A program made the translations under genes and the position numbers. Shown in pieces: positions 34,223-61,149 of a DNA stretch of 64,000 nt; position 1 is the first letter of the stretch, and the number at the start of each line of letters is the position of its first letter. The DNA lies in assembly GCF_022965805.1 (NCBI RefSeq), contig NC_133108.1:19542056-19606055 (forward strand), read 5' to 3'. Below the pieces are notes generated by a model. That model did not search any database. It saw only the letters and a list, made by a program, of their open reading frames with translations, and was not told the DNA's origin. This DNA is from Primulina eburnea. Lineage: Eukaryota; Streptophyta; Magnoliopsida; Lamiales; Gesneriaceae.

Positions 34223-35365
34223 GTATAATTCATGTGATATTCGGGAAGAAACAACTCAATTGAGATCACCATTTGAGTTGCCCAATAAATCACATACTAT
34301 GTTCTTGTTTATATATTTGTTTATAGAACTTGTATTCAAATCTTGCTATGCTTTGTTTGCAGATCATGTTACATTGCATTAAGATGATTATGCTTGTTTA
34401 CAGATTGTGTATTCATGCATTAAGATAGGAAAGTCTGCGAGATCATCCAGACTTCTAGATGTTCGGGGATATCTCAGCTTAGGGGAAGATCACCGCCCCT
34501 TTGTAGACGTGGATACAGATCAGGCCGAAGTCTAGGAATAAGACGTACAGCACCTCGATTGGTAGGGTAGGTGACAGCCAGTGACGTCTTATTCACAACG
34601 GGATCCCTATAGTTACAGATCGAGTCGAGTCTAGACATGCTTTGATTAGGACTTCATGTTCATATGGATGTGGCTCCTAGATCATGGGACCTATCGTTAT
34701 TGCTTTCAGTTGTGCTAGCATATTTTATGATTTAGATTGTTTATATGCATGTTTATCTGATTTGAGCTGCATGCTTAATTTCATAGATTATGGAATATAT
34801 TGTGTTTATACATGATCGCATGTTTTATGAATTAGTTTGTTTATATACATGCTTACCATGTTTTATACTGGGATTTATTCTCACCGGAGTTATCCGGCTG
34901 TTGTCTTGTTTTGTATGTGTGCATGACAACAGGTGGGGCTGGATCAGGGTCGAGATGACGATGAGAGAAGACGAGTTAGCGTGGTGATTCCGGACTTGTA
35001 GCAGACTTGGTTTATTACTTGAATTTAGTAATTGAACCTTAGAATTAGGTTGTACAATATTGTACTTTTCTACTGAACTGTAGTTCTTATACAGAGATGT
35101 ATATTGTTTAGATTCCATTACCTTCCGCAGTTACATGTTAAAAAGAAAAATTTTTAGACCCTGTTTTATCTTAATTGATAAGTAAATCCCAAGGATGATT
35201 AATAAGACAGATCAGCGTCCGGGTCCCCACAACAATGGATCAATTGAAGGGAATAACACTTTGAAACCTTTGAAATACAATACATATAACATCATGTGAG
35301 CGAAGGGATGAAATTCCACTTACAAACCAATAGAACACCTCCAAACTATACTCTTGGTACACCAC

Positions 35366-35505
35366 CTACAACAATAATCCATAAATAACACCAATATCAA
35401 CTCTATATCCAAAAATACAAGTCAAATAACCCATTGAACCATCAAAAGCATCAACCTATAGCATCTCAATTCCAACACCATGATAGAACTCAACCAAAAA
35501 CTTAC
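35366..35505 (-). other. Putative intron in family-A LTR, minus-strand copy
   Basis: Minus strand reads CTAAG|GTAAG at 35505 and TTGTTGTAG|GTGGT at 35366; 140 bp. Confidence 0.45.
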
Positions 35506-35711
35506 CTTAGCTTCCTCTCACCACGTAGAAGCTCGATCTCAACTCGGAAATCCAAACAAATCCAAGAATCAAAGCTAGGAAATGAAATGAAATGAAGGAA
35601 ACCCTTGTTTCTAGAGAGAAATCTCGAAAATGGAGGAAAGGAAAGGTGAAAAGTGAAGTCAACTCAACCAAAAAACAACTTAAAGCTTCGCCCATACCTC
35701 AATAATACAAG

Positions 35712-35921
35712 ACCGCGGGTGCGCTGCCACAAGCACCGCGGGTGCGCTATGCCTTCGGCCAACAAAATTAAAATCCATGCACGATGACCGCGGGTGCGGT
35801 GCTGCAAATACCGCGGGTGCGGTCCTTGCACTGCCGCGGGTGCGGTGATGCCACGGCCAAACTCTCAAAATCCAATAAATGAGACCGCGGGTGCAGTCCC
35901 TACAATGAGTGCGGGTGTGGT
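35712..35921. promoter_or_regulatory. GC-dyad motif array in outer family-A LTR
   Basis: Seven or so ACCGCGGGTGCGS-type motifs, the complement of the motif in plus-strand LTRs, some decayed (GAGTGCGGGTGTGG). Confidence 0.55.
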
Positions 35922-36129
35922 ACAGCTTCGGCCAAGAAGCAATCCAAAGCAACTAAAATCAATCCGCAACGCTGAAACGACGCAACCAACAACATCTAAT
36001 ACAACAACCAAGCCACAAACAATAATACCAACTAAACTATAACCCATAACACAACTCAAATCATCTAAATCATAAAACCCAATAAACACATAAAACTTAA
36101 ACCGTACCGTACACCGGGCTCGGCTATTA

Positions 36130-36688
36130 AAACTTCAATCTCAACTCAAACATCAAACTAGATCCAAGAATCAAAGGTAGGAATTGAAAGAAAATGAAGA
36201 AAACCCTTGTTTCTAGAGAGAAAATCGAGATGGAGAGGAAAGGGATGGAAAAAAGTGAAGTCAACTTATCCAAAAAGCTACTTAAAATCTTGCCCATACC
36301 TCAATAATGCATGACCGCGGGTGCGCTAAGCTCTCGGCAATCCAAACAGTTTCCTGAAAACGACGACCGCAGGTGCAGTACTCTCCACACCGCGGGTGCG
36401 GTGTTCTCACGGCCAAACCACCAAAATCCAACAATTACGACGGCGGGTGCGGTCCTTACACTGAGTGCGGGTACGGTGTTGCCACGGCAGAAACAAAATC
36501 TCAAGCAGCTAAAATCCAACCAAAACTCTGAAACAACGCAACAACCAACAACTAACAATACCAACCATGCCACAAAACCATAATACCAACAATACTATAA
36601 CCCATAACACAACTCTAAACATCTATATCACATAACCCAATAACATACAAAACTTAAACCGTACCGTACACCGGGCTCGGCTATTACA
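36130..36688 (-). repeat. Extra 559-bp partial family-A LTR (start portion)
   Basis: On the minus strand it begins exactly at TGTAATAGCCGAG (36688), runs through its own dyad array (36314-36477), and stops at GAAGTT, where the next LTR begins at TAATAGCC. It abuts the integrase array at 36689 with no polypurine tract. It could be a partial LTR duplication or the stump of a separate insertion. Confidence 0.85.
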
Positions 36689-37394
36689 TGCCATCTTAGA
36701 GAATCTATCCACAACAACAAAAATAGAATCCCTCCCCTTCTTAGTCCTAGGCAACCCCAAAATAAAGTCCATAGAAATGTCAATCCAAGTTCTTTTTAAG
36801 AATAGCACGCAAAAGTGTTCCCAAAGTTCTCTTGACAACTTCAGTTTGTCCATCCGTTTGAGGATGACAAGTAGTAGAAAACAACAATTTTGTGCCAAGT
36901 TTAGCCCATAAAGTATTCCAAAAGTAACTCAAGAATTTAACATCGCGACCAGAAACTATAGTCCTAGGCATGCCATGCAACCTAGCGACTTCTCTAAAGA
37001 ACAAATCTGCCATGTTTGAAGCATCATCGGTTTTATGACAAGCTATAAAATGTGCCATCTTCGAGAATCTATCCACAACAACAAAAATAGAATCCCTCCG
37101 CTTCTTAGTCCTAGGCAACCCCAAAATAAAGTCAATAGAAATGTCAATCCAAGTTCTTTTTAAGAATAGCACGCAAAAGTGTTCCCAAAGTTCTATTGAC
37201 AACTTCAGTTTGTCCATCCGTTTGAGGATGACAAGTAGTAGAAAACAACAATTTTGTGCCAAGTTTAGCCAATAAAGTTTTCCATAAGTAACTCAAGAAT
37301 TTAACATCGCGACCAGAAACAATAGTCCTAGGCATGCCATGCAACCTAACAACTTCCCTAAAGAACAAATCCGCCATGTTTGAAGCATCGTCGG
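36689..37394 (-). repeat. Integrase-core tandem array, segment 1 (about 1.9 units)
   Basis: Two unit junctions, near 36783 and 37147. It is cut at the left by a family-A LTR start and at the right by the solo LTR. Unit described at 39294-48605. Confidence 0.92.
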
Positions 37395-39288
37395 TGTAAT
37401 GCCCTAGATTGAATATGAATAGACAGAAATTGAGAAATGTAATGCCTGAGATTATTGTAGATAGTTAAATACGAATCGCAAGAACAGACAGGGCAAAACG
37501 ATGCGATAAAATATGAAATTTTATCTATGCAAGACCGCACCCGCGGTCTGGCAAGCACCGCACTCGCGGTGCAATGGGCAGAAAGTTGGTAGAATTCCCG
37601 TAGCCACACCGCACCCGCGGTAGAATTAGACCGCACCCGCGGTACTAAGACCGCACCCGCGGTATTTACCTGACCGCACCCACGGTCATCACTTGTGAAA
37701 AATAAAAGTTTTGTCGAAGCCATAGCGCACCCGCGCTACTAGAGTTACCGCACCCGCGGTGATGCCTCCGAGAAATCCACTCTTGTTCTTAACTTGACAC
37801 ATGGCAGGGGTATAAATATAACTCAAACATGAGTCATTCCACCCATTTCAGATACGGGAAACAAGGGAAAACTCAGAAGAAGAAGAAAGGTTCCTTGCTT
37901 ATGAAAATTGATCTTGTGCAAGATTTAGCCATCCAAATTATAATCCGAGTTGAGATTCTTGTTCCTTGCATCGACGGCTACAAGGTAATGTAAGTTTTGT
38001 GTAATTCTAACATGTCTCGAATCATAGATGTTGGAGAAATAGTAATATGTTAGTTATATGGGATTCTTGGCATAGTGAGCATCGTATATTCACTATCGGG
38101 TTGAATATCGGATGTCATACGCAATTGTTACGATTTTCCAGCATATATTGGCATGAGATTATGCAGAGTGTGTGATCGTGTCATAGATATTATGATGATT
38201 ATGAGTTGAGAATTGCACAATGTTGATATATGATGAGATTTGGATAGACCGGTATTGAGAAATCATGTCGTTATGCCGTCCGACTGTACCAAGATCACGT
38301 ATAGAATTAGATAGGTGTTGAATTGTGTTGGGAATTGATATTGTATGTATCTACATTTCCATTTCAGATTCGTATTGTCAACCGTGACGGCAACGACGAA
38401 AGGTATAGTACATGTTTTGTTTGGGGACCTGCGACTCAAATGAGATCACATTTGAGTTTCCCAACCAAAATCACATACTTTTTTTATTGTTTATATCTAG
38501 ATATGATTATGATTGTTTATAGATTTGTTTATAGAACTTGTATACAAATCTTGCTATGCTTTGTTTACAGATCATGTGGCATTGCATTAGAATGATTATG
38601 CTTGTTTACAGATTGTGTATTCATGCATTAAGATAGGACAGTCTGGAGATCAGGCAGACTACTAGACGTTCGGCGATATCACAGCTTAGGGGAAGATCAC
38701 CGCCCCTATTGTAGACGCGGATACAGATCAGGCCGAAGTCTAGGAATAATACGGACATCACCTCGATTGGGAGGGTAGGTGACAGACAGTGCCGTCTTAT
38801 TCACAACGGGATCCCTAGAGTTCTAGTCGAGTCGTGTCTAGACATGATTAGACGCGCATTGCATGATTATATATGAATGACATTCATATTAGCATGTTTC
38901 ATGTTTTAGATTGTTTTAATGCATGAATACATGTTTATACTGGGATTTGTTCTCACCGGTTTTCCGGCTGTTGTTATGTCTGTATGTGTGCATAACAACA
39001 GGTGGGGCAGGATCTGGGTCGAGACAGAGATGATCGTGTTAGCGTGGAGATCACGGGCATAGCAGATGGACCAGTAGTTGTCTTTTATTATGTACTGTAT
39101 TTTAATACTGGTTAGTTGAGGACATACAGAATAAGACATGTATTGTGTTTGTATGTTGTAAATTTAATAAAGAACTTATGCTTGTTTAATTACATGTTTT
39201 TTTATGTAAAAAGCGAAAATTTGACCCACATTTTAGAATAACGATCCATTTAATCCCAAGAAAAAGAATTAGAGCCCGGGTCCCCACA
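37395..39288 (+). mobile_element. Family-B solo LTR inside the array
   Basis: 1894 bp from TGTAATGCCCTAG to GGGTCCCCACA with no interior. Flanks are GTCGG (37390-37394) and GTCAG (39289-39293), a target duplication with one mismatch, and the array unit resumes in register. A second LTR-start-like TGTAATGCCTGAG preceded by GAGAAA lies at about 37437. Dyads at 37533-37760 (8 motifs), TATA at 37811-37818, and an exon-like block at 38368-38402 show family-B organisation. Confidence 0.9.
37533..37760. promoter_or_regulatory. GC-dyad motif array (8 copies) in solo LTR
   Basis: Mostly ACCGCACCCGCGGT, plus AGCGC-ACCC-GCGCT with both arms changed. A TATA box follows at 37811. Confidence 0.6.
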
Positions 39289-39293
39289 GTCAG

Positions 39294-42200
39294 TTTTATG
39301 ACAAGCTATAAAATGTGCTATCTTAGAAAATCTATCCTCAACAACAAAAATAGAATCCCTCCCCTTCTTAGTCCCAGGCAACCCCAAAATAAAGTTCATA
39401 GAAATGTCAATCCAAGTTCTTTTTAAGAATAGCACGCAAAAGTGTTCCCAAAGTTCTCTTGACAACTTCAGTTTGTCCATCCGTTTGAGGATGACAAGTA
39501 GTAGAAAACAACAATTTTGTGCCAAGTTTAGCCCATAAAGTATTCCAAAAGTAACTCAAGAATTTAACATCGCGACCAGAAACAATAGTCCTAGGCATGC
39601 CATGCAACCTAGCGACTTCTCTAAAGAACAAATCCGCAATGTTTGAAGCATCATCGGTTTTATGACAAGCTATAAAATGTGCCATCTTAGAGAATCTATC
39701 CACAACAACAAAATTAGAATCCCTCCCCTTCTTATTCCTAGGCAACCCCAAAATAAAGTCCATAGAAATGTCAATCCAAGTTCTTTTTAATAATAGCACA
39801 CAAAATTGTTCCCAAAGTTCTATTGACAACTTCAGTTTGTCCATCCGTTTGAGGATGACAAGTAGTAGAAAACAACAATTTTGTGCCAAGTTTAGCCAAT
39901 AAAGTCTTCCAAAAGTAACTCAATAATTTAACATTGCGACTAGAAACAATAGTCCTAGGCATGCCATGAAACCTAACGACTTCTCTAAAGAACAAATTTG
40001 CCATGTTTGAAGCATCATCGGTTTTATGACAAGCTATAAAATGTGCCATCTTTGAGAATCTATCCACAACAACAAAAATAGAATCCCTCCCCTTTCTTAG
40101 TCCTAGGAAACCACAAAATAAAGTCCATAGAAATGTCAATCCAAGTTATTTTTAAGAATAGCACGCAAAAATGTACCCAAAGTTCTCTTGACAACTTCAG
40201 TTTGTTCATCCGTTTGAGGATGACAAGTAGTAGAAAACAACAATTTTGTGCCAAGTTTAGCCCATAAAGTCTTCCAAAAGTAACTCAAGAATTTAACATC
40301 GCGACCAGAAACAATAGTCCTTGGCATGCCATGCAACCTAACGACTTCTCTAAAGAACAAATCCGCCATGTTTGAAGCATCATCGGTTATATGACAAGCT
40401 ATAAAATGTGCCATCTTAGAGAATCTTTCCACAACAAAAAAAATAGAATCCCTCCCCTTCTTAGTCCTCGGCAACCCCAAAATAAAGTACATAGAAATTT
40501 CAATCCAAGTTCTTTTTAAGAATAGCACGCAAAAGTGTTCCCAAAGTTCTCTTGACAACTTCAGTTTGTCCATCCGTTTGAGTATGACAAGTAGTAGAAA
40601 GCAAAAATTTTGTGCCAAGTTTAGCCCATAAAGTATTCCAAAAGTAACTCAAGAATTTAACATCGCGACCAGAAACAATAGTCCTAGGCATGCCATGCAA
40701 CCTAGCGACTTCTCTAAAGAACAAATCCGCCATGTTTGAAGCATCATCGATTTTATGACAAGCTATAAAATGTGCCATCTTAGAGAATCTATCCACAACA
40801 ACAAAAATAGAATCCCTCCCCTTCTTAGTCCTAGGGAACCCCAAAAAAAATTCCATAGAAATGTCAATCCAAGTTCTTTTTAAGAATAGCACGCAAAAGT
40901 GTTCCCAAAGTTCTATTGACAACTTCAGTTTGTCCATCTGTTTGAGGATGACAAGTAGTAGAAAACAACAATTTTGTGCCAAGTTTAACCAATAAAGTCT
41001 TCCAAAAGTAACTCAAGAATTTAACATCGCGACCAGAAACAATAGTCCTTGGCTTGCCATGTAATCTAGCGACTTCTCTAAAGAACAAATCCGCAATGTT
41101 TGAAGCATTATCGGTTTTATGACAAGCTATAAAATGTGCCATCTTAGAGAATCTATCCACAACAACAAAAATAGAATCCCTCCCCTTCTTAGTCCTAGGC
41201 AACCCCAAAATAAAGTCCATAGAAATGTCAATCCAAGTTCTTTTTAAGAATAGCACGCAAAAGTGTTCCCAAAATTCTCTTGACAACTTCAGTTTGTCTA
41301 TCCGTTTGAGTATGACAAGTAGTAGAAAGCAAAAATTTTGTGCCAAGTTTAGCCCATAAAGTATTCCAAAAGTAACTCAAGAATGTAACATCGCGACCAG
41401 AAACAATAGTCCTAGGCATGCCATGCAACCTAGCGACTTCTCTAAAGAACAAATCCGCCATGTTTGAAGCATCATCGATTTTATGACAAGCTATAAAATG
41501 TGCCATCTTAGAGAATCTATCCACAACAACAAAAATATAATCCCTCCCCTTCTTAATCCTAGGGAACCCCAAAAAAAAGTCCACAGAAATGTCAATCCAA
41601 GTTCTTTTTAAGAATAGCACGCAAAAGTGTTCCCAAAGTTCTATTGACAACTTCAGTTTGTCCATCCGTTTGAGGATGACAAATAGTAGAAAACAACAAT
41701 TTTGTGCCAAGTTTAGCCCATAAAGTATTCCAAAAGTAACTCAAGAATTTAACATCGCGACCAGAAACAATAGTCCTAGGCATGCCATGCAACCTAGCGA
41801 CTTCTCTAAAGAACAAATCCGCCATGTTTGAAGCATCATCGATTTTTATGACAAGCTATAAAATGTGCCATCTTAGAGAATCTATCCACAACAACAAAAA
41901 TAGAATCCCTCCCCTTCTTAGTCCTAGGGAACCCCAAAAAAAATTCCACAGAAATGTCAATCCAAGTTCTTTTTAAGAATAGCACGCAAAAGTGTTCCCA
42001 AAGTTCTATTGACAACTTCAGTTTGTCCATCCGTTTGAGGATGACAAATAGTAGAAAACAACAATTTTGTGCCAAGTTTAGCCCATAAAGTATTCCAAAA
42101 GTAACTCAAGAATTTAACATCGCGACCAGAAACAATAGTCCTAGGCATGCCATGCAACCTAGCGACTTCTCTAAAGAACAAATCCGCCATGTTTGAAGCA

Positions 42201-45200
42201 TCATCGATTTTATGACAAGCTATAAAATGTGCCATCTTAGAGAATCTATCCACAACAACAAAAATAGAATCCCTCCCCTTCTTAGTCCTAGGGAACCCCA
42301 AAAAAAATTCCATAGAAATGTCAATCCAAGTTCTTTTTAAGAATAGCACGCAAAAGTGTTCCCAAAGTTCTATTGACAACTTCAGTTTGTCCATCTGTTT
42401 GAGGATGACAAGTAGTAGAAAACAACAATTTTGTGCCAAGTTTAGCCAATAAAGTCTTCCAAAAGTAACTCAAGAATTTAACATTGCGACTAGAAACAAT
42501 AGTCCTAGGCATGCCATGAAACCTAACGACTTCTCTAAAGAACAAATTTGCCATGTTTGAAGCATCATCGGTTTTATGACAAGCTATAAAATGTGCCATC
42601 TTTGAGAATCTATCCACAACAACAAAAATAGAATCCCTCCCCTTTCTTAGTCCTAGGAAACCACAAAATAAAGTCCATAGAAATGTCAATCCAAGTTATT
42701 TTTAAGAATAGCACGCAAAAATGTACCCAAAGTTCTCTTGACAACTTCAGTTTGTTCATCCGTTTGAGGATGACAAGTAGTAGAAAACAACAATTTTGTG
42801 CCAAGTTTAGCCCATAAAGTCTTCCAAAAGTAACTCAAGAATTTAACATCGCGACCAGAAACAATAGTCCTAGGCATGCCATGCAACCTAACGACTTCTC
42901 TAAAGAACAAATCCGCCATGTTTGAAGCATCATCGTTATATGACAAGCTATAAAAGGTGCCATCTTAGAGAATCTATCCACACCAAAAAAAATAGAATCC
43001 CTCCCCTTCTTAGTCCTCGGCAACCCCAAAATAAAGTCCATAGAAATGTCAATCCAAGTTCTTTTTAAGAATAGCACGCAAAAGTGTTCCCAAAATTCTC
43101 TTGACAACTTCAGTTTGTCTATCCGTTTGAGTATGACAAGTAGTAGAAAGCAAAAATTTTGTGCCAAGTTTAGCCCATAAAGTATTCCAAAAGTAACTCA
43201 AGAATTTAACATCGCGACCAGAAACAATAGTCCTAGGCATGCCATGCAACCTAGCGACTTCTCTAAAGAACAAATCCGCCATGTTTGAAGCATCATCGAT
43301 TTTATGACAAGCTATAAAATGTGCCATCTTAGAGAATCTATCCACAACAACAAAAATATAATCCCTCCCCTTCTTAGTCCTAGGGAACCCCAAAAAAAAG
43401 TCCACAGAAATGTCAATCCAAGTTCTTTTTAAGAATAGCACGCAAAAGTGTTCCCAAAGTTCTATTGACAACTTCAGTTTGTCCATCCGTTTGAGGATGA
43501 CAAATAGTAGAAAACAACAATTTTGTGCCAAGTTTAGCCCATAAAGTATTCCAAAAGTAACTCAAGAATTTAACATCGCGACCAGAAACAATAGTCCTTG
43601 GCTTGCCATGTAATCTAGCGACTTCTCTAAAGAACAAATCCGCAATGTTTGAAGCATTATCGATTTTATGACAAGCTATAAAATGTGCCATCTTAGAGAA
43701 TCTATCCACAACAACAAAAATAGAATCCCTCCCCTTCTTAGTCCTAGGCAACCCCAAAATAAAGTCCATAGAAATGTCAATCCAAGTTCTTTTTAAGAAT
43801 AGCACGCAAAAGTGTTTCCAAAGTTCTATTGACAACTTCAGTTTGTCCATCCGTTTGAGGATGACAAGTAGTAGAAAACAACAATTTTGTGCCAAGTTTA
43901 GCCAATAAAGTTTTCCAAAAGTAACTCAAGAATTTAACATCGCGACCAGAAACAATAGACCTAGGCATGCCATGCAACCTAACGACTTCCCTAAAGAAAA
44001 AATCCGCCATGTTTGAAGCATCGTCGGTTTTATGACAAGCTATAAAATGTGCTATCTTAGAGATTCTATCCTCAACAACAAAAATAGAATCCCTCCCCTT
44101 CTTAGTCCCAGGCAACCCCAAAATAAAGTTCATAGAAATGTCAATCCATGTTCTTTTTAAGAATAGCACGCAAAAGTGTTCCCAAAGTTCTCTTGACAAC
44201 TTCAGTTTGTCCATCCGTTTGAGGATGACAAGTAGTAGAAAACAACAATTTTGTGCCAAGTTTAGCCCATAAAGTATTCCAAAAGTAACCCAAGAATTTA
44301 ACATCGCGACCAGAAACAATAGTCCTAGGCATGCCATGCAACCTAACGACTTCTTTAAAGAACAAATCCGCAATTTTTGAAGCATCATCGGTTTTATGAC
44401 AAGCTATAAAATGTGCCATCTTAGAGAATCTATCCACAACAACAAAAATAGAATCCCTCCCCTTCTTAGTCCTAGGCAACCCCAAAATAAAGTCCATAGA
44501 AATGTCAATCCAAGTTCTTTTTAAGAATAGCACGCAAAAGTGTTCCCAAAGTTCTATTGACAACTTCAGTTTGTCCATCCGTTTGAGGATGACAAATAGT
44601 AGAAAACAACAATTTTGTGCCAAGTTTAGCCCATAAAGTATTCCAAAAGTAACTCAAGAATTTAACATCGCGACCAGAAACAATAGTCCTAGGCATGCCA
44701 TGCAACCTAGCGACTTCTCTAAAGAACAAATCCGCCATGTTTGAAGCATCATCGATTTTATGACAAGCTATAAAATGTGCCATCTTAGAGAATCTATCAA
44801 CAACAACAAAAATAGAATCCCTCCCCTTCTTAGTCCTAGGGAACCCCAAAAAAAATTCCACAGAAATGTCAATCCAAGTTCTTTTTAAGAATAGCACGCA
44901 AAAGTGTTCCCAAAGTTCTATTGACAACTTCAGTTTGTCCATCCGTTTGAGGATGACAAATAGTAGAAAACAACAATTTTGTGCCAAGTTTAGCCCATAA
45001 AGTATTCCAAAAGTAACTCAAGAATTTAACATCGCGACCAGAAACAATAGTCCTAGGCATGCCATGCAACCTAGCGACTTCTCTAAAGAACAAATCCGCA
45101 ATGTTTGAAGCATCATCGATTTTATGACAAGCTATAAAATGTGCCATCTTAGAGAATCTATCCACAACAACAAAAATAGAATCCCTCCCCTTCTTAGTCC

Positions 45201-48200
45201 TAGGGAACCCCAAAAAAAATTCCATAGAAATGTCAATCCAAGTTCTTTTTAAGAATAGCACGCAAAAGTGTTCCCAAAGTTCTATTGACAACTTCAGTTT
45301 GTCCATCTGTTTGAGGATGACAAGTAGTAGAAAACAACAATTTTGTGCCAAGTTTAGCCAATAAAGTCTTCCAAAAGTAACTCAAAAATTTAACATCGCG
45401 AACAGAAGCACTAGTCCTAGGCATGCCATGCAATCTAACGACTTCTCTTGAAAACAAATCCGCAATGTTTGAAGCATCAACGGTTTTATGGCAAGCTATA
45501 AAATGTGCCATCTTAGAGAATCTATCCACAACAACGAAAATAGAATCCCTCCCTTTCTTAGTCCTAGGCAACCCCAAAATAAAGTCCATAGAAATGTCAA
45601 TCCAAGTTCTTTTTAAGATTAACACGCAAAAGTGTTCCCAAAGTTCTCTTGACAACTTCAGTTTGTCCATCCGTTTGAGGATGACAAGTAGTAGAAAGCA
45701 ACAATTTTGTGCCAAGTTTAGCCCATAAAGTCTACCCAAAGTAACTCAAGAATTTAACATCGCAACCAGAAACAATAGTCCTAGGCATGCCATGCAACCT
45801 AACGACTTCTCTAAAGAACAAATCCGCAATGTTTGAAGCATCGTCGGTTTTATTACAAGCTATAAAATGTGCCATCTCAGAGAATCTATCCACAACAACA
45901 AAAAGAGAATCCCTCCATTTCTTAGTCCTAGGCAACCCCAAAATAAAGTCCATAGAAATGTCAATCCAAGTTCTTTTTAAGAATAACACGCAAAAGTGTT
46001 CCCAAAGTTCTATTGACAACTTCAGTTTGTCCATCCGTTTGGAATGACAAGTAGTAGAAAACAACAATTTTGTGCAAAGTTTAGCCCATAAAGTATTCCA
46101 AAAGTAACTCAAGAATTTAACATCGCGACCAGAAACAATAGTCCTAGGCATGCCATGCAACCTAACGACTTCTTTAAAGAACAAATCCGCAATGTTTGAA
46201 GCATCATCGGTTTTATGACAAGCTATAAAATGTGCCATCTTAGAGAATCTATCCACAACAACAAAAATAGAATCCCTCCCCTTCTTAGTCCTAGGCAACC
46301 CCAAAATAAAGTCCATAGAAATTTCAATCCAAGTTCTTTTTAAGAATAGCACGCAAAAGTGTTCCCAAAGTTCTATTGACAACTTCATTTTGTCCATCCG
46401 TTTGAGGATGTCAAGTAGTAGAAAACAACAATTTTGTGCCAAGTTTAGCCAATAAAGTCTTCCAAAAGTAACTCAAGAATTTAACATCGCGACCAGAAAC
46501 AATAGTCCTAGGCATGCCATGCAACCTAACGATTTCTCTAAAGAACAAATCCGCAATGTTTGAAGCATCGTCTGTTTTATGACAAGCTATAAAATGTGCA
46601 ATCTAAGAGAATCTATCCACAACAACAAAAATAGAATCCCTCCCCTTCTTAGTCCTAGGCAACCCTAAAATAAAATCCATAGAAATGTCAATCCAAGTTC
46701 TTTTTAATAATAGCACGCAAAAGTGTTCCCAAAGTTCTATTGACAACTTCAGTTTGTCCATCCGTTTGAGGATGACAAGTAGTAGAAAACAACAATTTTG
46801 TGCCAAGTTTCGCCCATAAAGTCTTCCAAAAGTAACTCAAGAATTTAACATCGCGACCAGAAACAATAGTCCTAGGCATGCCATGCAACCTAACGACTTC
46901 TCTAAAGAACAAATCCGCAATGTTTGAAGCATCACCTGTTTTATGACAAGCTATAAAATGTGCCATCTTAGAGAATCTATCCACAACAACAAAAATAGAA
47001 TCCCTCCCTTTCTTAGTCCTTGGCAACCCCAAAATAAAGTCCATAGAAATGTCAATCCAAGTTCTTTTTAAGAATAGCACGCAAAAGTGTTCCCAAAGTT
47101 CTATTGACAACTTCAGTTAGTCCATCCGTTTGAGGATGACAAGTAGTAGAAAACAACAATTTTGTGTCAAGTTTAGCCCATAAAGTCTTCCAAAAGTAAC
47201 TCAAAAATTTAACATCGCGATCAGAAGCAATAGTCCTAGGCATGCCATGCAACCTAACGACTTCTCTAAAAAACAAATCCGCAATGTTTGAAGCATCAAC
47301 GGTTTTATGACAAGCTATAAAATGTGGCATCTTTGAGAATCTATCCACAACAACAAAAATAGAATCCCTCCCCTTCTTGGTCCTAGGCAACCCCAAAATA
47401 AAGTCCATAAAAATGTCAATCCAAGTTCTTTTTAAGAATAGCACGCAAAAGTGTTCCCAAAGTTCTATTGACAACTTCAGTTTTTCCATCCGTCTGAGGA
47501 TGACAAGTAGTAGAAAACAACAATTTTGTGCCAAGTTTAGGCCATAAAGTATTCCAAAAGTAACTCAAGAATTTAACATCGCGACCAGAAACAATAGTCC
47601 TAGGCATGCCATGCAACCTAGCGACTTCTCTAAAGAACAAATCCGCAATGTTTGAAGCATCATCGGTTTTATGACAAGCTATAAAATGTGCCATCTTAGA
47701 GAATCTATCCACAACAACAAAAATAGAATCCCTCCCCTTCTTAGTCCTAGGCAACCCCAAAATAAAGTCCATAGAAATGTCAATCCAAGTTCTTTTTAAG
47801 AATAGCACGCAAAAGTGTTCCCAAAGTTCTATTGACAACTTCAGTTTGTTCATCCGTTTGAGGATGTCAAGTAGTAGAAAACAACAATTTTGTGCCAAGT
47901 TTAGCCAATAAAGTCTTCCAAAAGTAACTCTAGAATTTAACATCGCGACCAGAAACAATAGTCCTAGGCATGCCATGCAACCTAACGACTTCTCTAAAGA
48001 AAAAATCCGCAATGTTTGAAGCATCATCTGTTTTATGACAAGCTATAAAATGTTCCATCTTAGAGAATCTATCAACAACAACAAAAATAGAATCCCTCCC
48101 CTTCTTATTCCTAGGCAACCCTAAAATAAATTCCATAGAAATGTCAATCCAAGTTCTTTTTAATAATAGCACGCAAAAGTGTTCCCAAAGTTCTATTGAC

Positions 48201-48605
48201 AACTTCAGTTTGTCCATCCGTTTCAGGATGACAAGTAGTAGAAAACAACAATTTTGTGCCAAGTTTCGCCCATGAAGTCTTCCAAAAGTAACTCAAGAAT
48301 TTAACATCGCGACCAGAAACAATAGTCCTAGGCATGCCATGCAACCTAACGACTTCTCTAAAGAACAAATCCGCAATGTTTGAAGCATCATCTGTTTTAT
48401 GAGAAGCTATAAAATGTGCCATCTTAGAGAATCTATCCACAACAACAAAAATAGAATCCCTCCCTTTCTTAGTCCTAGGCAACCCCAGAATAAAGTCCAT
48501 AGAAATGTCAATCCAAGTTCTTTTTAAGAATAGCACGCAAAAGTGTTCCCAAAGTTCTCTTGACAACTTCAGTTTGTCCATCCGTTTGAGGATGACAAGT
48601 AGTAG
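39294..48605 (-). repeat. Integrase-core tandem array, segment 2 (about 25.6 units of 364 bp)
   Basis: Head-to-tail repeats with a 364-bp period (363-365 by small indels), junctions near 39410, 39774, 40139, 40503 and so on to about 48511. Each unit encodes one gypsy integrase catalytic core from WIDISMDF through [17 protein letters not shown] and [14 protein letters not shown] to RAILKKNL. Because 364 is not a multiple of three, consecutive units lie in different frames, so 160-residue frames with a nonsense first quarter appear at every unit but no multi-unit protein can be made. Almost all units read [10 protein letters not shown], where the family has a catalytic Asp (SDRD). It has the form of a satellite, not of a gene. 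Confidence 0.95.
40864..41227 (-). repeat. Representative 364-bp unit of the integrase array
   Basis: Runs from one AAGAACTTGGATTGAC junction to the next. At the junction the end of the core (KKNL) meets the start (WIDIS) one base out of phase. Confidence 0.85.
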
Positions 48606-50826
48606 TGTAATGCCCGAGAATTATTGAATTGATAAATCAAGATTATCAATCTTCATTAACGAGAGACTCGGAAGATATGAGAATGCATGTCATGCAATGA
48701 GGGAAGAAAAGATATGAGAAAATAGGGTTTGCAAGACCGCACCCGCGCTCAGAACAGGAGTGCACCTGCGGTCAGTTAAAATGGAAATTTCGAAGGTGAG
48801 GCCGAAGCATCACCGCACCCGCGGTGCAACCAAGATCGCACCCGTGGTGCATGGACAGAAAGTTGGCAAATTTTATTCGAGGCGACACCGCACCCGCGGT
48901 GCTAACAGGAGCGCACCCGCGCTAATGACACCGCACGCGCGGTCTTGTAGGAAGCGCACCGGTGGTCTGAGCTTCTGAGAAATATTGTGATAAACATGAC
49001 ATAGACCGCACCCGCGGTGCGTGCATGATCGCACCCGCGGTGCGACGTGCAGAACAAAGAATGAAGCCACGTTTTGGTTTGCATGCAAGATATATATACA
49101 CGTGTGGAGCTCGGTTTTCTTCAGATTTTGGAGAGAAATTCGAGAGCTTGGAGAGAACTACACTTTTTAAGTTTAGAATTAAATTTACGAAGAATCCGCG
49201 TATCAGAATTCGAATCCGAACGCAGTATCGTGTTCCTCTCGACTCGGGCTACACAAGGACGTAAGTTTTATTACGTTTTGAGATATTTTAGAAATATCAT
49301 ATTATCAGAATTGAATATGATTCAAATATGGTGTTTCTACTATCGTAGATATTGTATAATTGAAGTTAGAGTAAAGAACAGACCGTTTCTGTAATTGTTA
49401 TGATTTTTGAAAGATATTGACTGAGATTCTATATCAGACTTGTGTTAGTATTCAGAGTATGAATTGTATTGACACCGATTATGAGTTCTAGAATTATATT
49501 TGTGATGTTCAGATTGACGGGGTTATTCAGATTGTATTGTTATTCCGTCGAAACATCAGTTGAGTTATATTGATCAGATTCAGTATTGATTGAGATTGAT
49601 CAGACTCAGTAATTATTCAGATTATACTGTAATGTCGATGACATGAATTAGATTGTATCTTGTTCAGATATTGATCAGATTATGTACTGATTTGAGTATT
49701 GATCAGAACAGATTGTGTATTGAGTTATTTACTGATACAGCGTATTCAATATTGTCATTTCAGATTGATATGGACAGAGTTGAATACAGATCATCGTCTT
49801 CGTCAGATAGGGACGACAAAGGTATAATTCATGTGATATCTGGGAAGATATAACTCAAATCAGATCTCATTTGAGTTTCCCAATAAAATCACATACTTGA
49901 TTATTGTTTATCTTCTGAAATGATTATGATTTGTTTATAGACTTTATATTCAAATATTTTGAAATGAACATGCTTTGTTTACAGATTGTTATACATTGCA
50001 TTTGAGATAAGAAAGTTTGACAGACAGTCAGACTTCTAGACGTTCGGTGTATCGTTACATAGGAGCAGATACCCTCCTATAGATTATTCGATACAGATAT
50101 GACCGAAGTCTAGGAATAAGACGTACGTCGCCCCGATTGGGAGGGTAGGTGACAGACAGTGACGTCTTATTCACCCCGGGAACCCTAGAGTTATAGTTAA
50201 GTCGAGTCTAGACATGATTTGACTAGAACTGCATGCCTTTATGGTTGTGGTTTCATAGACTATGAAACCCATGTTTATTGCTTTCAGTTATGACAGCATG
50301 TTTATATGATTTGATTTAAATTGCATGTTTATCTGAATTGAGTTGCATGCTTATTTTGAGTTGATTTCATAGATTATGAATTCTATTACTTTTGAATATG
50401 ATTATGATAGCATGTTTAAAGATTTAGATTGTTTCTATACATGCTTACCATGTTTTTATACTGGGATTTATTCTCACCGGAGTTATCCGGCTGTTGTCTT
50501 GTTTTGTATGTGTGCATGACAACAGGTGGGGCTGGTTCAGGGTCATGAGGATGATGAGAGAAGACGAGTTAGCGTGGTGATTCCGGACTTGTAGTAGACT
50601 TGGTTTATTACTTGAACTTAGTAACTGAACCTTAGACTTAAATTGTACAGTATTGTACTTTTATACTGAAATGTAGTTGTTTTTATACAGAGATGTATAT
50701 TATTAGATTCCATTACCTTCCGCAATTATATTTCAAAAAGAAAAATTTTTTTTGACCCTGTTTATCAGAATTGATAATTGAATCCCAAAGATGATTAAGG
50801 AAATGATTAGCGTCCGTGTCCCCACA
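48606..50826 (+). repeat. 5' LTR of second gag-only element
   Basis: 2221 bp, TGTAATGCCCGAGAATTATT to GTCCCCACA. Dyads 48735-49041, TATA 49091-49098, donor GTAAGT at 49261, exon-like block 49764-49821. Confidence 0.9.
48735..49041. promoter_or_regulatory. GC-dyad motif array (10 copies)
   Basis: Largest dyad array in the window, including two AGCGC/GCGCT-type variants and decayed forms. It is followed 50 bp later by TATATATA. Confidence 0.6.
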
Positions 50827-50831
50827 ACAGG

Positions 50832-50843
50832 TGGTATCAGAGC
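50832..50843 (+). other. Primer-binding site (Met-tRNA)
   Basis: TGGTATCAGAGC, five bases after the LTR end. Confidence 0.9.
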
Positions 50844-51156
50844 GATAGATCCTTTAGATTGAGATAGTCAGAACTGATAGATCTTTTAGACTGAGATAGT
50901 AGAGAATGAGCGGGGTAGATTGAACTTTCTTCCTTGCATATGATTGCTAGCATGAGATTTATTATAATGCTGAATTACATTATGGGTGCTAGCATGATTT
51001 ACTGTTTTTCCTATTACATGTTGTTTGTATCGGAGTTGATTACAGCATGTAATTGTTAAGCCTGAATCAGAACTGAGTCTCGATCAGAGGTATATGATCA
51101 GAGGAGGGCTGAGACAGATTGTATAGACTGTGTACTAACCGGTTTGATATTCAGAT

Positions 51157-52071
51157 ATACCACCTCGGAGAATTTCAGAAAAGGGCAGTACTTCGACTGA
51201 ACAGATAGATATATCGGAGAATCAGATAGAAACACAGATGAAGAGGTTTCAGTCATTTCAACCGCCGATTCTGAAGGGAACTGAGACACCAGCAGATTGT
51301 GAGAATTTGCTTGAGGAGACAAAAATGGTATTTGAATTTCTTGGTCTCACAGATGAGTGTAGAGTTAACCTGATTGAGAACCAATTGCAAGAGACTGCAA
51401 GAAGATGGTGGTTACTAACCAAAGGAGCTTTAGAACAGAGTTGTTCAGTAATATCGTGGAAGATCTTTAAATTTGAATTTTATCAAAGATTCTTCCCTAC
51501 ATCATACAGACAGGACAGAAGTGCAGAGTTTACTAACTTGAGACAGGGTCAGATGAGTATTGATGAGTATCTGGCACAGTTCTTCACCTTATTACGTTTT
51601 GCCCCTCTTGTGGCTAGGAATGATGATGCGATGTCTAGCCAGTTCATTCAGGGATTGAATCCTGAGATACGTACATTGGTAAATGTGAAGCAATCGAGTA
51701 GTTTTGCTGGTACATTGAACAGAGCCAAAAGAGCAGAAACGGTTCTGATAGGACAACAGGGAGCATCGTATGATCTTCCAGCATCGAATCCACAACAACT
51801 GCCTTCCAGATTTGAGATTGGCAGCAACAGTGGTAAAAAGAAAGAACCATTGAAGATCGAAAAGAAACAGTTTAAGAAGTTAGGGGGTGGACAGAGTAGT
51901 TCATCTAGCTCCAGTGTTTCCAGTCCGAGTTATACTGGAGTATACTGCAGAACTTGCGGAGGAAGACATTCCACAGAACACTGCCTAGGAGTGCTTAGTA
52001 GATGCAATGTCTGTAAACAATCGGGACACTTTGCGAGAGTTTGTCCTCAAAGAGATTCCCGAAGATTTTAG
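51157..52071 (+). pseudogene. Gag of second gag-only element, open but without start codon
   Basis: About 304 codons open from ATA (51157), the position of the family start, followed in frame by PPRRISEKGSTSTEQ. The first in-frame ATG is at 51238 (MKRFQSFQPP), which would remove about 27 residues. Core gag (ARRWWLLTKGALEQS, QFIQGLNPEIRTLV) and zinc fingers [13 protein letters not shown] and CNVCKQSGHFARVC are intact. Unlike the copy at 29591 there is no internal stop. Nearby pol is destroyed, so a preserved gag is notable. Translation from 51238 is possible but unproven, so it could be a functional shortened gag. Confidence 0.8.
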
Positions 52072-54190
52072 GGAACAGAATCATCTGATGACACTGATTG
52101 TGGAACAGACCCAGATATAGTGACAGGTATTATTCTTTATGATTCTATTGCATATGTATTGATATATACTAATGCATTTCATATGAGTATATCTGATGGA
52201 GTAGCATGGAGATATGTTGTATCTGATTTGAGTCTAGTTGTACTGTAGTATTGATTTCATAGCTTGTTGAGGAAATGTTGATATCAGAGATTTCTGTATA
52301 TATGGTATACTACAGTAAGATGAGAATGAAATAGAGATAGAGATAGATTATGATGTACTTGTGTTTTCTGATTTGAACGCATTATTGATATGTATATGTT
52401 GAACAAGTACAGATATATTGTAGAATTGTTCCAGAAATGGTAAGATTCAGACCAGAGAGGACTGATCAGTGGAGATACCCTAGTAAGGATTCTAGATTTG
52501 GAATTCCTTTGATATCTGTATTATATATGACTCGATTAGTACAGAAAGGAGCAGATTGCATCCTTATGTATTCAGTAGATCCACTGAAATCGAGCCTAGA
52601 ATTGGCAGATTTGCAAATGATGTATGAGTTGGCTGATGTTTGCCTAGATAAGATATTAGATTTGCTTGATATCAGAAAGATAGATTTCAGAATTGAATTC
52701 AGATCAGATGCTGATTGTTGTTTTAGAATTCAGTACAGAATGATATTGAGTGTACAGAATGATACAAAATGAATTGAAAGAATATTTGAAAGATCATATT
52801 AAATATTCTGAGAATTATGATTCTTGTATACATAAATTGTTCAGATATGTATTTTGTTTGAAACAGATTGTATTCAGAATAAATGATATCTGATGTTAGT
52901 ATACTAATTGATTTTGAGACAGTTGATATTGTGATCAGTGACGGATCAGATACCGATATCAGAAAGATCAGAAAGTCAGAAATGTCAGAATTGTCAAATA
53001 TTGATATTATATGAGTTGACAGATTATCTGATATGATTGTATTTTGAACTGCTTGAGAATTATTGCTTCTAGACCAGTATTTTATACAGATTGTATTGTT
53101 TGGGGAGCATATTATATTTGCAGATGATATATAGCAGTCGATCAGAATGGCATGAAGATCTGATTGATTTGCCAGAATCGATAGTATTGTTAGAACTTAC
53201 AATCCTATATATTTACTAGATTAGTATAGAGTATGGTTATTCTGAATCAGTATTGATACAGATTTTATGAACCGTTGAGAGTATATACAGTTCAGCTTGT
53301 ATCAGAAATGAATTCGAGAATTTCAGCAGTTCAGAAACGTGATCAGAGTGGTCAGAACAGTATTTCGATAATCAGAGCAGAGTATCGGTCAGGAAAACAG
53401 ATATGTGATTTGGTATTTTGTATTAGACTGATTGTGTTATGATATCGGAATGTTTCAGAATTGTATAACAGAGTTGATATTTATAATCAGAGCCGAATAC
53501 CAGGTAGGTATTTTTCTTTAAATTTTATTATTAACTGATTTGTTTATACCGAATAGTTTGAATCTGAAATTACAGATAGTGTCAAAAATGCATTGTAGTG
53601 GATTCAGTGTTCATTTTGCTGACTGAGAATGTATGAGATCTGAACAGACAGGTATGACATAGACAGATTAGATCAGTCGTGACAGAATTTGTACAGAAAT
53701 GTTGGCAGAAATTGTAATGATATGTCTGAATTGCTAACAGAAAAGACAGAAAGATAGAAATCAGAAGATTTATTACAGATTTAGTATATTTCTGATTCGA
53801 TATGGGGAGTATATTTCGATGAATTTCTTAATAAGATTTTCCCGATATTTCCAGATTGTGATATAATATGATTATGATTGACAGATTGTTCAATCTATAT
53901 CTATTAGTTTGTACAAGATGATGTACAAACGGAACCAAATAACACAGATTGTTGTCAGAATATAGTCAGAGTGACTAGAATATAGAAGTAGATTATATCA
54001 GATGGTGGTTTTGATTGAGATAGCAATTATAACAGATCATACCATAAGTTATTTTGCAGATTATTTACAGATTGACAGACAGTCAGAGTATATTATCCAG
54101 ATATTGGAAGATATTCAGAGAACTGAAGTGCTGGATGTTAGCACGAGATGAGAGTTCATATTGTCATTATATGAATTATGGTTTAATTAT
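52072..54190 (+). pseudogene. Decayed pol of second gag-only element
   Basis: One longer open piece at 52437-52772 matches the protease-RT linker of the full element (VRFRPE, MTRLVQKGAD, SVDPLKSSLELADL). GCCGAATACCAGG recurs at 53492-53504 and ATGATTGACAGATTG near 53873, in the same order as in the first copy. RT and RNase H are unrecognisable. Confidence 0.75.
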
Positions 54191-56264
54191 TGTAAGGAAC
54201 GATTTAGGAAGCCCGAAAACAAGCAACGGAAGCATAAAAATTTAAAAATTTTCGGCCCCTATACATTTGTGTAGCAAAAATACAATAAACACCAAGAACT
54301 CATTCATAGGGTGTTAGAAAGTGATTTACCTATCAACCTCACAAGGTTGATGAATGGCACCAACTTTGTTGTAAACAACAAAGCTCTTCTTTGGTAGGCA
54401 AATCTACAAGCTCCTCCTTCTTTCCTTCAAGAAATAAGGCCCACCACTAGCAAGGCAAACCCCCTCAAGTTTTGCACTAGAAAAACTTAAGGATTTTTCA
54501 AAGAGAAGATTTTATTCTCCAAGAAATGAAGAACAAAAAAATGGAAGAAAAATGGGAGAGAAATTCCCTCAAGAATTCGGCCAAGTGAGTGAGTTGGGAG
54601 AGTGTGGGAGACTAGCCTTGGTTGTTGAAAAAGTTGTCTCTCAAAAGTTGCATGCCTTTGAATTTTTTAATAAAAAGTAATCCACACCTCTTCACCTCCC
54701 AAGCATGCAAACCCTAGCATGTCATGCATATATAATATGGTTTTTAACACATTAAAAACCATGGACTAAATTTTAATTATCTCAAACACATTTGAGATTA
54801 ATTAAATACTACTTGAATTTATTCAAGTCCCACTATTTAAATAATTATTTAATTGAGCTCTACAAGACTCAATATAATTTAATTAATTCAACACTTGAAT
54901 TATTTAATTATTTAGACTCTACTAGGTCCACTAGTGTTTAATTAATTCAACACTTGAATTAATTTAATTTAGTCCTCAATATTGTTTATGAAAATCACAA
55001 TTTTCAACTACATTATTTACTTGGCCAAATTTTAATCTAAGGAACACTTCCATAAATTAAAAATTATATTTCTCTCATAGAAGTCATACTTCTATTTTTC
55101 TTTACACTTATAAACACATTTATAAGCCGTTCAACACATTGAACTATTTTACTTCTCATCGGGATTTACAAAGCTAATACTTGTGTGGCCCTCAATGGTT
55201 CATTGATACAACTAGCCGTAGGTTCACATCTCTATGTGATTCGGACTAAACATGTCCTTATTCGAGCATACCCCAATTGCTCCATTCTTACTTATCAACT
55301 CCTTGATAGTAAGAACGTAAGAACTCAGGTCTGATAGTACCCAACCAATCACGTTAAACACCTAGCAGCATCGTTTACGTGATTCCCTAGGTATCACATG
55401 ATAGTGCCTGCAAGAACCATTCAATTATGGTTAGCGTACAGTACGGTCCCTTCAACTCATATATCCCGACCGATTCGACAACTATTGGTTTATCGAGAGT
55501 TGTCAATGAATCGATACTATGTGTCATGTTGTGGTTGCATCGATGGTGTAATCTATGAAACCCCTTTCATAATTACCACCATACTCTGATCAGAGATTTC
55601 AACCCACACATACATGAAAAACACATAGGATATCCATACCCATAGGTAAGCGGTGAATCCCCGGCTACAATGCATCGACTCCTATATGTTTCGCCATAAC
55701 ACCCAACCTTGCCACCTGATGATCCCATAAGAGTCGGTAAACAAGTCAAAGTGAAACGCTAGCACATAGAGTCTCAATGTTGTCTCGGGTCATAAGGACT
55801 AATGGTGTACAACCATAAACTAGGACTTTTCCACTCGATAAGTGAGAACCACTTGGAAAGTCCTTTATAGAGGGTTGTTCAGTGCACTCTACCAGGAGCA
55901 CCTATCTGCATGCTCGGACATCACAATGTCCCCTACCAATGAAACATGGTACTCACATCGCAGATACTAGTCTCTAACTCGAGCGGCCTATATCCTTCTT
56001 AGTGGCGGCTGAATCGACTAGGAACCGTTTAGAATATACAGTATTACAAATATGAGTTTCATGATACTCATCATATGAGCATCTCATATTCTTTCTACTA
56101 TATGTATATTCAAGGACTTAATCTATGCAACTCGCATGGGTATAAAGATAAAGATGCGCCAAATTAATAAATTCAAATATTATTAAAATAAAGATCGTTT
56201 AATACAAAGAGTTTCATCGTGAACAGTCGGCCAACACTTGGCTCGACGTGCACCTACTCTAACA
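54191..56264 (-). repeat. 3' LTR of truncated copia
   Basis: 2074 bp, followed at 56265 by the polypurine tract (minus strand AGTGGGAGAT). Strong match to 9666-11723 except for the first 80 bp or so. Confidence 0.88.
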
Positions 56265-56278
56265 ATCTCCCACTTGCA

Positions 56279-57611
56279 CTAGAGCCAACTACCCATATAC
56301 TTAAGACCCATTGATTCGCGATGCTTCTCGAATGATGTTCCTGGTAAAGGCTTAGTTAGTGGATCAGCAACATTATCTGCGGAGCCGACTTTGTCGATCG
56401 ACACTTCTCCTCGTTCCACGATCTCTCTGAGGATGTGGTACTTTCTCAATACGTGTTTGGACTTCTGATGAGACCTTGGCTCCTTCGCCTGAGCTATGGC
56501 TCCCGTGTTGTCGCACATCACCGGGATAGGAGCAACTCCATTTGGAATGACGCCCAACTCTTGGACGAAATTCCTAATCCAAACAGCCTCCTTTGCTGCA
56601 GCCGATGCAGCAATGTATTCTGCCTCAGTGGTGGAATCCGCAGTACTGTCTTGCTTGGAACTCTTCCAAGAGACAGCACCACCATTGAGCATGAATATGA
56701 ATCCGGAGGTTGACTTCGAGTCATCAACATCGCTTTGGAAGCTAGAGTCGGTATAGCCTTCCAATTTTAGTTCTCCACCCCCATAGACCAAAAACAACTT
56801 ATTGGTCCTTCTCAAATACTTGAGGATGTCTTTCACAGCTTTCCAGTGCGGAAGACCAGGGTTGGATTGATATCTACTCACTACACTTAGTGCAAATGCC
56901 ACGTCAGGACGTGTAGATATCATCCCATACATGATACTACCAATATCCGAAGCATAAGGAATTCGTGTCATCGCTGCTATCTCTGCATCAGTCTTGGGAG
57001 ACATAGACTTGGATAGGGACACGCCATGACACATTGGTAGATGTCCTCTCTTGGACTCATCCATCGAGAACCGCTTCACGATGGTATCAATGTATGTGGA
57101 CTGGGTGAGACCAAGCAATCTTCTTGATCTATCTCTATAGATCTGTATTCCCAATAAAAAAGATGCTTCACCCAAGTCCTGCATTGAGAACTTACTTGCT
57201 AACCATATCTTTGTTGATTGCAACATTCCTACATCATTCCCAATGAGTAGAATGTTATCAACATAAAGAACAAGGAATGTCACAGCACTCCCACTGACCT
57301 TCTTATACACACAAGGTTCCTCAGGATTCTCAGTAAAACCAAACTCTTTGATTGTACTATCGAATCTGAGGTTCCAGCTCCTCGATGCCTGCTTAAGACC
57401 ATAAATAGATCTTTGAAGTTTGCATACCATATGCTCACTTCCGATGGATGTAAACCCTTCAGGTTGAGACATGTAAATTTCTTCCTTAATATCCCCATTA
57501 AGGAAGGCTGTCTTCACATCCATCTGCCATATCTCATAGTCATACCATGCAGCTATGGCTAGCAATATCCTAATGGACTTGAACATCGCAACTGGAGAAA
57601 AGGTTTCCTCA
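56279..57611 (-). pseudogene. Copia RT-RNase H fragment
   Basis: Open from the truncation point ([11 protein letters not shown]) to the pol C-terminus (GSWL). RT blocks WQMDVKTAFLNGDI, LKQASRSWN and the active site are present, but the active site reads YVDNILLIGND instead of YVDD. RNase H has [10 protein letters not shown] and [10 protein letters not shown]. Where the 12684-16622 copy has TGA, this one has GGA (SIGSEHM). It lacks gag, protease and integrase, so it cannot be autonomous. Confidence 0.9.
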
Positions 57612-57613
57612 TA

Positions 57614-58971
57614 GCGACTTCTCTAAAGAACAAATCCGCAATGTTTGAAGCATTATCGGTTTTATGACAAGATATAAAATGTGCCATCTTAGAGAATCTA
57701 TCCACAACAACAAAAATAGAATCCCTCCCCTTCTTAGTCCTAGGCAACCCCAAAATAAAGTCCATAGAAATTTCAATCCAAGTTCTTTTTAAGAATAGCA
57801 CGCAAAAGTGTTCCCAAAGTTTTCTTGACAACTTCAGTTTGTCCATCCGTTTGAGGATGACAAGTAGTAGAATACAACAATTTTGTGCCAAGTTAGCCCA
57901 TAAAGTATTCCAAAAGTAACTCAAGAATTTAACATCGCGACCAGAAACAATAGTCCTAGGCATGCCATGCAACCTAGCGACTTCTCTAAAGAACAAATCC
58001 GAAATGTTTGAAGCATCATCGATTTTATGACAAGCTATAAAATGTGCCATCTTAGAGAATCTATCCACAACAACAAAAATAGAATCCCTCCCCTTCTTAG
58101 TCCTAGGCAACCCCAAAATAAAGTCCATAGAAATGTCAATCCAAGTTCTTTTTAAGAATAACACGCAAAAGTGTTCCCAAAGTTCTATTGACAACTTCAG
58201 TTTGTCCATCCGTTTGAGGATGACAAGTAATAAAAAACAACAATTTTGTGCCGAGTTTAGCCCATAAAGTCTTCCAAAAGTAACTCAAGAATTTAACATC
58301 GCGACCAGAAACAATAGTCCTAGGCATGCCAGGCAACCTAACGACTTCTCTAAAGAACAAATCCGCAATGTTTGAAGCATCATCTGTTTTATGACAAGCT
58401 ATAAAATGTGCCATCTTAGAGAATCTATCCACAACAACAAAAATAGAATCCCTCCCCTTCTTAGTCCTAGGCAACCCCAAAATAAAGTCTATAGAAATGT
58501 CAATCCAAGTTCTTTTTAAGAATAACTTGCAAAAGTGTTCCCAAAGTTTTCTTGACAACTCCAGTTTGTCCATCCGTTTGAGGATGACAAGTAGTCGAAA
58601 ACTACAATTTTGTGCCAAGTTTAGCCCATAAAGTATTCCAAAAGTAACTCAAGAATTTAACATCGCGACCAGAAACAATATTCCTAGGCATGCCATGCAA
58701 CCTAGCGACTTCTCTAAAGAACAAATCCGCAATGTTTGAAGCATCATCGGTTTTATGACAAGCTATAAAATGTGTCATCTTAGAGAATCTATCCACAACA
58801 ACAAAAATAGAATCCCTCCCCTTCTTAGTCCTAGGCAACCCCAAAATAAAGTCCATAGAAATGTCAATCCAAGTTCTTTTTAAGAATAGCACGCAAAAGT
58901 GTTCCCAAAGTTTTATTGACAACTTCAGTTTGTCCATCCGTTTGAGGATGACAAGTAGTAGAAAACAACAT
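57614..58971 (-). repeat. Integrase-core tandem array, segment 3 (about 3.7 units)
   Basis: Junctions near 57783, 58144, 58507 and 58870. Left edge joins copia RT with TAG (57612-57614) shared by both sides. Right edge is the first unit, joined to gag at about 58971. Confidence 0.92.
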
Positions 58972-60921: not shown

Positions 60922-61149
60922 GTGCACCCGCGCTCATAGTAGGAGTGCCCCCGCGGTGTACTGTTCATAATTTTGTTGTTGTAGGGCCGTGGCATCACCG
61001 CACCCGCGGTAGTGTTGAGACTGCACCCGCGGTAGAGACCGCACCCGGGGTATTAGCAGCGCCGCACCCGCGGTCGTAGTGTTTCAGAATTTGGTGGTTT
61101 TGCCGTGAACGTGGCGCACCCGCGGTGCTTGTTTGAACGCACCCGCGGT
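60922..61149. promoter_or_regulatory. GC-dyad motif array (8 copies)
   Basis: Eight ACCGCACCCGCGGT-type motifs, some altered (GTGCACCCGCGCT, CCGCACCCGGGGT), twice as many as in the 430-2239 LTR. Confidence 0.6.

Follow-up and report, generated by a model that had tools for sequence, protein, structure and literature searches.

A satellite-like tandem array probably derived from the integrase core of a Ty3/gypsy retrotransposon in Primulina eburnea

An array of 364-bp units

We have analyzed a stretch of 64,000 nucleotides from the genome of Primulina eburnea (Gesneriaceae), positions 19,542,056 to 19,606,055 of NC_133108.1 in assembly GCF_022965805.1. We refer to this whole stretch as the window, and all coordinates below are counted from its first letter. 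Between positions 36689 and 58971, the window carries a tandem array with a total length of about 11 kb, which is found in three segments:

36689..37394, minus strand: left segment, one complete unit (36788-37151) between a 99-nt piece and a second piece that reaches a solo long terminal repeat (LTR)
39289..48605, minus strand: middle segment, 25 complete 364-bp units with end pieces of 122 and 90 nt, as placed by BLAST
57612..58971, minus strand: right segment, three complete units (57781-58871) with pieces of 169 and 102 nt

Tandem Repeats Finder reports a period of 364 for each of them, with 1.9 copies at 36689-37395 (score 1323), 25.6 copies at 39293-48605 (score 16793), and 3.7 copies at 57612-58970 (score 2529), and with matches of 95-96% within all three stretches. 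When the region 36689-58971 is compared to itself for all shifts from 20 to 2999, the top shift is 364 (53.6% identity, gaps included), and the multiples of 364 come next. Mapping one unit with BLAST identifies 29 complete units, three in the right segment, 25 in the middle, and one in the left (one of the 29 being matched over 363 of its 364 positions), and six partial pieces of 102, 169, 90, 122, 250, and 99 nt, which add up to about 31.3 unit lengths and all lie on the minus strand. At the thresholds used, BLAST finds the unit neither on the plus strand nor in the rest of the window. A sequence-only reading of this DNA had described about 31 head-to-tail units of 364 bp, all minus strand and in three segments, and had proposed tandem-repeat detection and self-comparison as checks; repeat detection and BLAST mapping both bear that description out.

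The array consists of head-to-tail copies of one monomer, as satellite DNA does. The monomer has a length of 364 nt in 23 of the 29 complete units and differs from it by one base in the other six, and 19 of the 29 are both 364 nt long and free of stops in the parental frame. Units differ from each other by 0.3-8.2%, with a mean of 4.6%. The mean distances are 4.5% between right and middle segments, 4.7% within the middle segment, and 4.2% between left and middle (the right segment contributing 3 units, and the left only 1). Because these distances are roughly equal, the three segments look like one former array.

The unit as an integrase catalytic core

The majority unit has 121 codons, without stops, that run from WIDISMDF to RAILKKN. 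In one open reading frame (ORF) that spans a unit, the Pfam domain rve (integrase core) is matched with an E-value of 7e-07 and 29.9 bits, slightly below the cut-off of 32.6. A protein search with the unit ORF reports 7235 relatives, and the 120 listed are 72-87% identical across 72-86% of the query. The unit consensus reaches up to 90% identity with plant relatives, among the 235 that were fetched. By these similarities, each unit is identified as the catalytic core of a Ty3/gypsy integrase, and the earlier proposal that a gypsy integrase core was the seed of the array agrees with both the rve match and the close relatives.

The named relatives, from a second relative search, are angiosperm sequences (Citrus, Xanthoceras, Paulownia, Dionaea, Sesamum, Hibiscus, Cajanus, Paspalum, and others), with a single non-angiosperm, an entry filed under the bacterium Candidatus Paraburkholderia schumanniana; our guess is that this one is perhaps plant DNA in that assembly. 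In all, 355 proteins were fetched (120 of 7235, 120 of 7612, and 120 of 136 matches, with five common to the first two sets).

Would this core still be active as an enzyme? At the site of the second catalytic Asp, 25 of the 29 units have G, two have S, one has V, and one has retained D, so that the residue is altered in 28 of 29, while D occupies the same position in 224 of the 235 fetched relatives. Since nearly all units carry the alteration, the founder or an early unit was probably enzymatically dead already.

As for the element of origin, the array contains no reverse transcriptase (RT), the protein whose phylogeny defines membership in the CRM clade. Ten relatives were scanned for domains. 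All ten have the integrase core and SH3_Tf2-1, and nine have the H2C2 finger, with weak matches in two (E 0.01-0.04). A chromodomain was found in none of the ten at E-values up to 1; most matches above about 0.1 are filtered out at this setting, and some tails are incomplete. We take the core to look CRM-like, and the parent may well have been a CRM-lineage chromovirus. CRM is a clade of plant chromoviruses in which, at the integrase C-terminus, 60% of members have a CR motif, 18% a chromodomain, and 22% neither (PMC6317226; also PMC3059260). CRM groups A and B are marked by the CR motif or by lack of a type II chromodomain; the array does not include this region. Tekay, Reina, and Galadriel have type II chromodomains (PMC3059260, PMC3605345), and the non-chromoviruses Tat and Athila are also without a targeting domain or chromodomain (PMC3059260).

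A reading frame that drifts as DNA

The parental reading frame provides a test of whether the units have evolved under coding selection. The 29 units show 135 distinct changes, of which 29 are silent, 101 replace a residue, 4 create a stop, and one lies outside a full codon. For 1000 random placements, we expect 29.0 +/- 4.0 silent, 99.3 +/- 4.3 replacement, and 6.4 +/- 2.2 stop changes. The other two frames are also neutral, with 30 silent changes vs. 32.8 expected, and 29 vs. 28.2 expected. Because silent, replacement, and stop changes match the random expectation, and do so in all three frames, the array drifts as DNA. It behaves as DNA without coding selection and is not a protein-coding locus, as had been anticipated from the unit length alone: 364 is not a multiple of 3, and the frame shifts at every junction. 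The neutral pattern of change in all three frames rules out a coding function of the units. Among the C>T or G>A changes, 6 of 39 fall in CG, compared to the 14 of 137 C or G positions that are in CG (methylation-type decay).

For most units, the ORF list includes an ORF of at least 160 residues. These ORFs of about 160 residues consist of a frameshifted leader contributed by one unit and the core of the next. In the BLAST comparison, seven of the 120 listed relatives align from query residues 22-33, and so extend slightly into the leader, and residues 1-21, in the frameshifted leader, are covered by none of the 120. A pattern search finds the leader or junction peptides in 0 of the 355 fetched proteins.

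Breaks and ends of the array

The segments are separated by two gaps, and the left end of the array abuts an element that we call Y:

37395..39288, plus strand: solo LTR of about 1.9 kb, TGTAATGCCC...CCCCACA, with flanks GTCGG/GTCAG (one mismatch) and the array phase kept across it
48606..57611, no strand assigned: compound gap, an LTR element and then a copia fragment
35235..36688, minus strand: LTR of element Y, whose 5′ end adjoins the array at 36688/36689

At the first gap, the near-perfect 5-bp target duplication and the conserved phase indicate that the solo LTR inserted after the array had formed. The second gap is more complex. A plus-strand LTR element begins at 48606 and includes a putative gag-like ORF at 51238-52071; the right part, or far end, of this element was not found. 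A copia fragment at about 54301-57614, related to a copia element at 9666-20474, is cut inside its RT region where the array resumes. The unit position is 275 before the gap and 169 after it, and because the array resumes at a different unit position beside the cut copia, DNA was lost at this point. Thus, of the earlier suggestion that the segments were separated by later insertions, the first gap is a clean case, but the second combines insertion with loss of array DNA.

Element Y runs out of the window on the left, and the array may continue beyond it. At the right end, about 58971, the array meets the truncated gag of a Ty3/gypsy-like element on the minus strand, with similarity to the element at 5681-5892 starting at 58984.

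How the array may have grown

The units are in register across one junction, and therefore one event probably seeded the array. At this junction, the parental frame passes through KKN-L into the W of the next unit, and 122 codons minus about 2 shared bases result in 364. In the relatives, the commonest residue before the W is P, and after KKN it is L or I. The pairwise distances between units also pick out a stretch of block duplication:

39779..45240, minus strand: units M10-M24

Units M14-M17 pair in order with M21-M24, at distances of 1.4-1.7%, and M10-M11 pair with M18-M19, at 0.3% each, while M12 and M13 are left without such a partner. The pairing is what unequal exchange of a block of seven to eight units would leave.

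We consider it likely that this is a locally expanded, satellite-like array, with a 364-bp monomer cut from the integrase core of one Ty3/gypsy copy, probably a CRM-lineage chromovirus. An illegitimate event, perhaps at a short microhomology between the parental KKN-L and P-W codons, would have linked the two ends of the core a single time. Unequal exchange would then have raised the number of units to at least about 31, partly homogenizing them. LTR elements would have inserted afterwards, and deletions would have trimmed the array. Using a substitution rate of 1.3e-8 per site per year, the unit divergence of 4.6% converts to a rough age near 2 million years. The description of the satellite as young, offered by the sequence-only reading, can be kept only in a rough sense, as that mean divergence exceeds the 0.89-1.51% obtained for the four pairs of LTRs that were measured here. 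If Y inserted into the array, the order of events was the array, then Y, then the elements nested in Y (0.89% and 1.38%).

Several points weigh against this account. The short microhomology at the junction, although plausible, is deduced from protein neighbors only. Local homogenization in the middle segment is weak: unit similarity against distance has a Mantel r of 0.11, a value reached by 187 of 2000 permutations. About 31 units is a small number for a satellite, a kind of DNA with a high genome copy number and arrays of tens of kb or more, compared to the 11 kb or so of array in this region. At each visible end, the array is cut or runs up against another element, which puts its original flanks out of sight. 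Lack of a chromodomain is by itself insufficient to assign the parent to CRM, given that Tat and Athila also lack one and some CRM elements have one (PMC6317226). Finally, the queries used to search for the parent lie between RNase H and the SH3 domain.

Alternative explanations

Tandem copies could also have arisen by template switching during reverse transcription within a non-autonomous LTR element, which would then have delivered the array by retrotransposition, in a manner similar to the 3′ untranslated region (UTR) repeats of Ogre/Tat elements. The Lathyrus satellites were seeded by tandem repeats inside elements (PMC7004042), and the original ends of our array are not visible in the window, both of which leave room for this route. 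On the other hand, no LTR pair was found in the window that would enclose the full array within a single element (Y and the right-hand element being incomplete there), the pattern search of the 355 fetched proteins retrieved neither two cores nor unit-junction peptides, and those gag relatives of element Y that include an integrase stretch are unlike the core of the array (34-68% identity in 34 matches). We regard this origin as unlikely. We see a rather low chance for another route that starts outside the chromosome, in which microhomology gave rise to a small, two-nucleosome-sized circle of the core, and rolling-circle copying then produced an array that was inserted ready-made. The unit length is suggestive, as 364 bp is about two nucleosome repeats, and oat monomers of 335-360 bp have been interpreted likewise (PMC6543597). 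The units are in register across one junction, and a search of the window with three relatives, covering parts between RNase H and the SH3 domain, showed no closer parental piece outside the array; the other integrase of the window is 51% identical. But with flanks cut or abutted on both sides the absence of a parent says little, and unit divergence of up to 8.2% together with the block duplication points to later exchange, which alone is able to build the array.

Two further possibilities concern what the array is, rather than how it grew. It could be a functional small-RNA locus retained to silence elements that carry an integrase, and a core with thousands of relatives (7235 matches) could provide small RNAs that match many copies. 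However, all unit copies found run one way, and so there is no hairpin structure: inverted copies are absent and a single strand is represented in the window, unlike a hairpin small-RNA locus with its precursor. There is also no constraint on the protein frames, a neutral drift that says nothing about function at the DNA level. Such a locus is in our view improbable. That the array is an artifact of assembly, as tandem repeats frequently are misassembled, is hardly credible here, as the units differ by 0.3-8.2% and one finds a solo LTR within the array, in phase and with its target duplication.

Comparison with known systems

Satellites derived from retrotransposons are already known, mostly by way of LTR, UTR, or 3′-UTR repeats. 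Among the closest systems are CRM1TR and CRM4TR of maize, which are tandem repeats from single parents of CRM-type retrotransposons, but their monomers come from LTR and UTR sequences, and our unit comes from the integrase coding core (PMC3648361). For these repeats the authors propose an illegitimate start followed by gene conversion, with unequal exchange or rolling circle not excluded (PMC3648361). The Ogre-derived FabTR satellites of Lathyrus sativus are also arrays grown from a Ty3/gypsy element; they originate from short tandem repeats that pre-existed in the 3′-UTR, whereas our array stems from a coding domain of which the relatives seen have one copy each (PMC7004042). In the Tat/Ogre pattern, the source is already tandem and located downstream of gag-pol; here, two cores appear in 0 of 355 proteins by pattern search. 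Ss68 and Ss166 of sugarcane are long (3,962 bp for Ss68) and look like parts of elements, not like a short unit made only of a core (PMC5278356).

In the open-licence literature, a search for a 364-bp satellite, made with the hyphenated form "364-bp" alone, matched no paper. Searches for satellites derived from an integrase core led to none that we recognized, as judged by titles, abstract openings, and passages. For Primulina, nothing relevant was among the matches listed. What sets this array apart is its derivation from a conserved coding core, and a precedent derived from coding sequence probably exists. Cheng and Murata are said to have traced, in 2003, a 250-bp centromeric repeat of wheat and Aegilops to the gag of a centromeric Ty3/gypsy element; compared to our array, that repeat reportedly comes from gag and not from integrase, is more diverged, and is centromeric by fluorescence in situ hybridization.

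The origins of satellites are hard to study because most of them are too old to reveal their source. In this array, the source is clear, one junction is common to the units, and the reading frame works as a built-in neutrality test. The array has the look of a satellite at an early stage of its birth from protein-coding sequence, and it suggests that such a birth can proceed without an LTR, a UTR, or prior tandem repeats, and that the most conserved coding part of an element is enough. One could speculate further, with low confidence, about a nascent satellite in which a two-nucleosome-sized piece of a centromeric-type core was circled out or duplicated by microhomology, with growth selecting for length and not for coding content, and which may act as a seed for a centromere or pericentromere. 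If that were true, the parental frame, the junction, and the drift, all of them still readable, could be used to date each step by which coding DNA gave rise to a satellite. There is also a warning for annotation, as an array such as this one may be called as dozens of integrase fragments.

Neighboring elements

Other retrotransposons occupy the region to the left of the array:

430-4358: short LTR element, two 1.8-kb LTRs around 312 bp, with a site resembling a primer-binding site at 2240, target duplication AGTAG, and an LTR distance of 1.38%
7515-35231, plus strand: LTR element with target duplication ACAAT and an LTR distance of 0.89%, nested in the LTR of element Y
9666-20474: copia element whose two long repeats, 9666-11720 and 18420-20474, are 1.51% apart

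The short element at 430-4358 is apparently non-autonomous and appears to be nested in the pol of element Y. Another nest, about 19.5 kb in size, interrupts the left LTR of the 7515-35231 element. The long repeats of the copia element are likely its LTRs. On the minus strand, the ORF at 4332-6665 has, over its first 330 residues (gag), 88% identity with a protein from Primulina tabacum and 84% with one from P. eburnea, which would point indirectly to Primulina or a near member of the Gesneriaceae as the probable host.

Several LTR regions contain many short ACCGCACCCGCGGT-like motifs, at varied spacing and with ends that are mutually reverse complementary; these regions are 33318-33395, 35787-35851, 37608-37664, 48740-48960, and 61017-61052. 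Near the right edge of the window, at 63703-63856, there is a small tandem array with a 20-bp unit of the GGCTGATTCGCC type, which is also called at periods 40 and 79.

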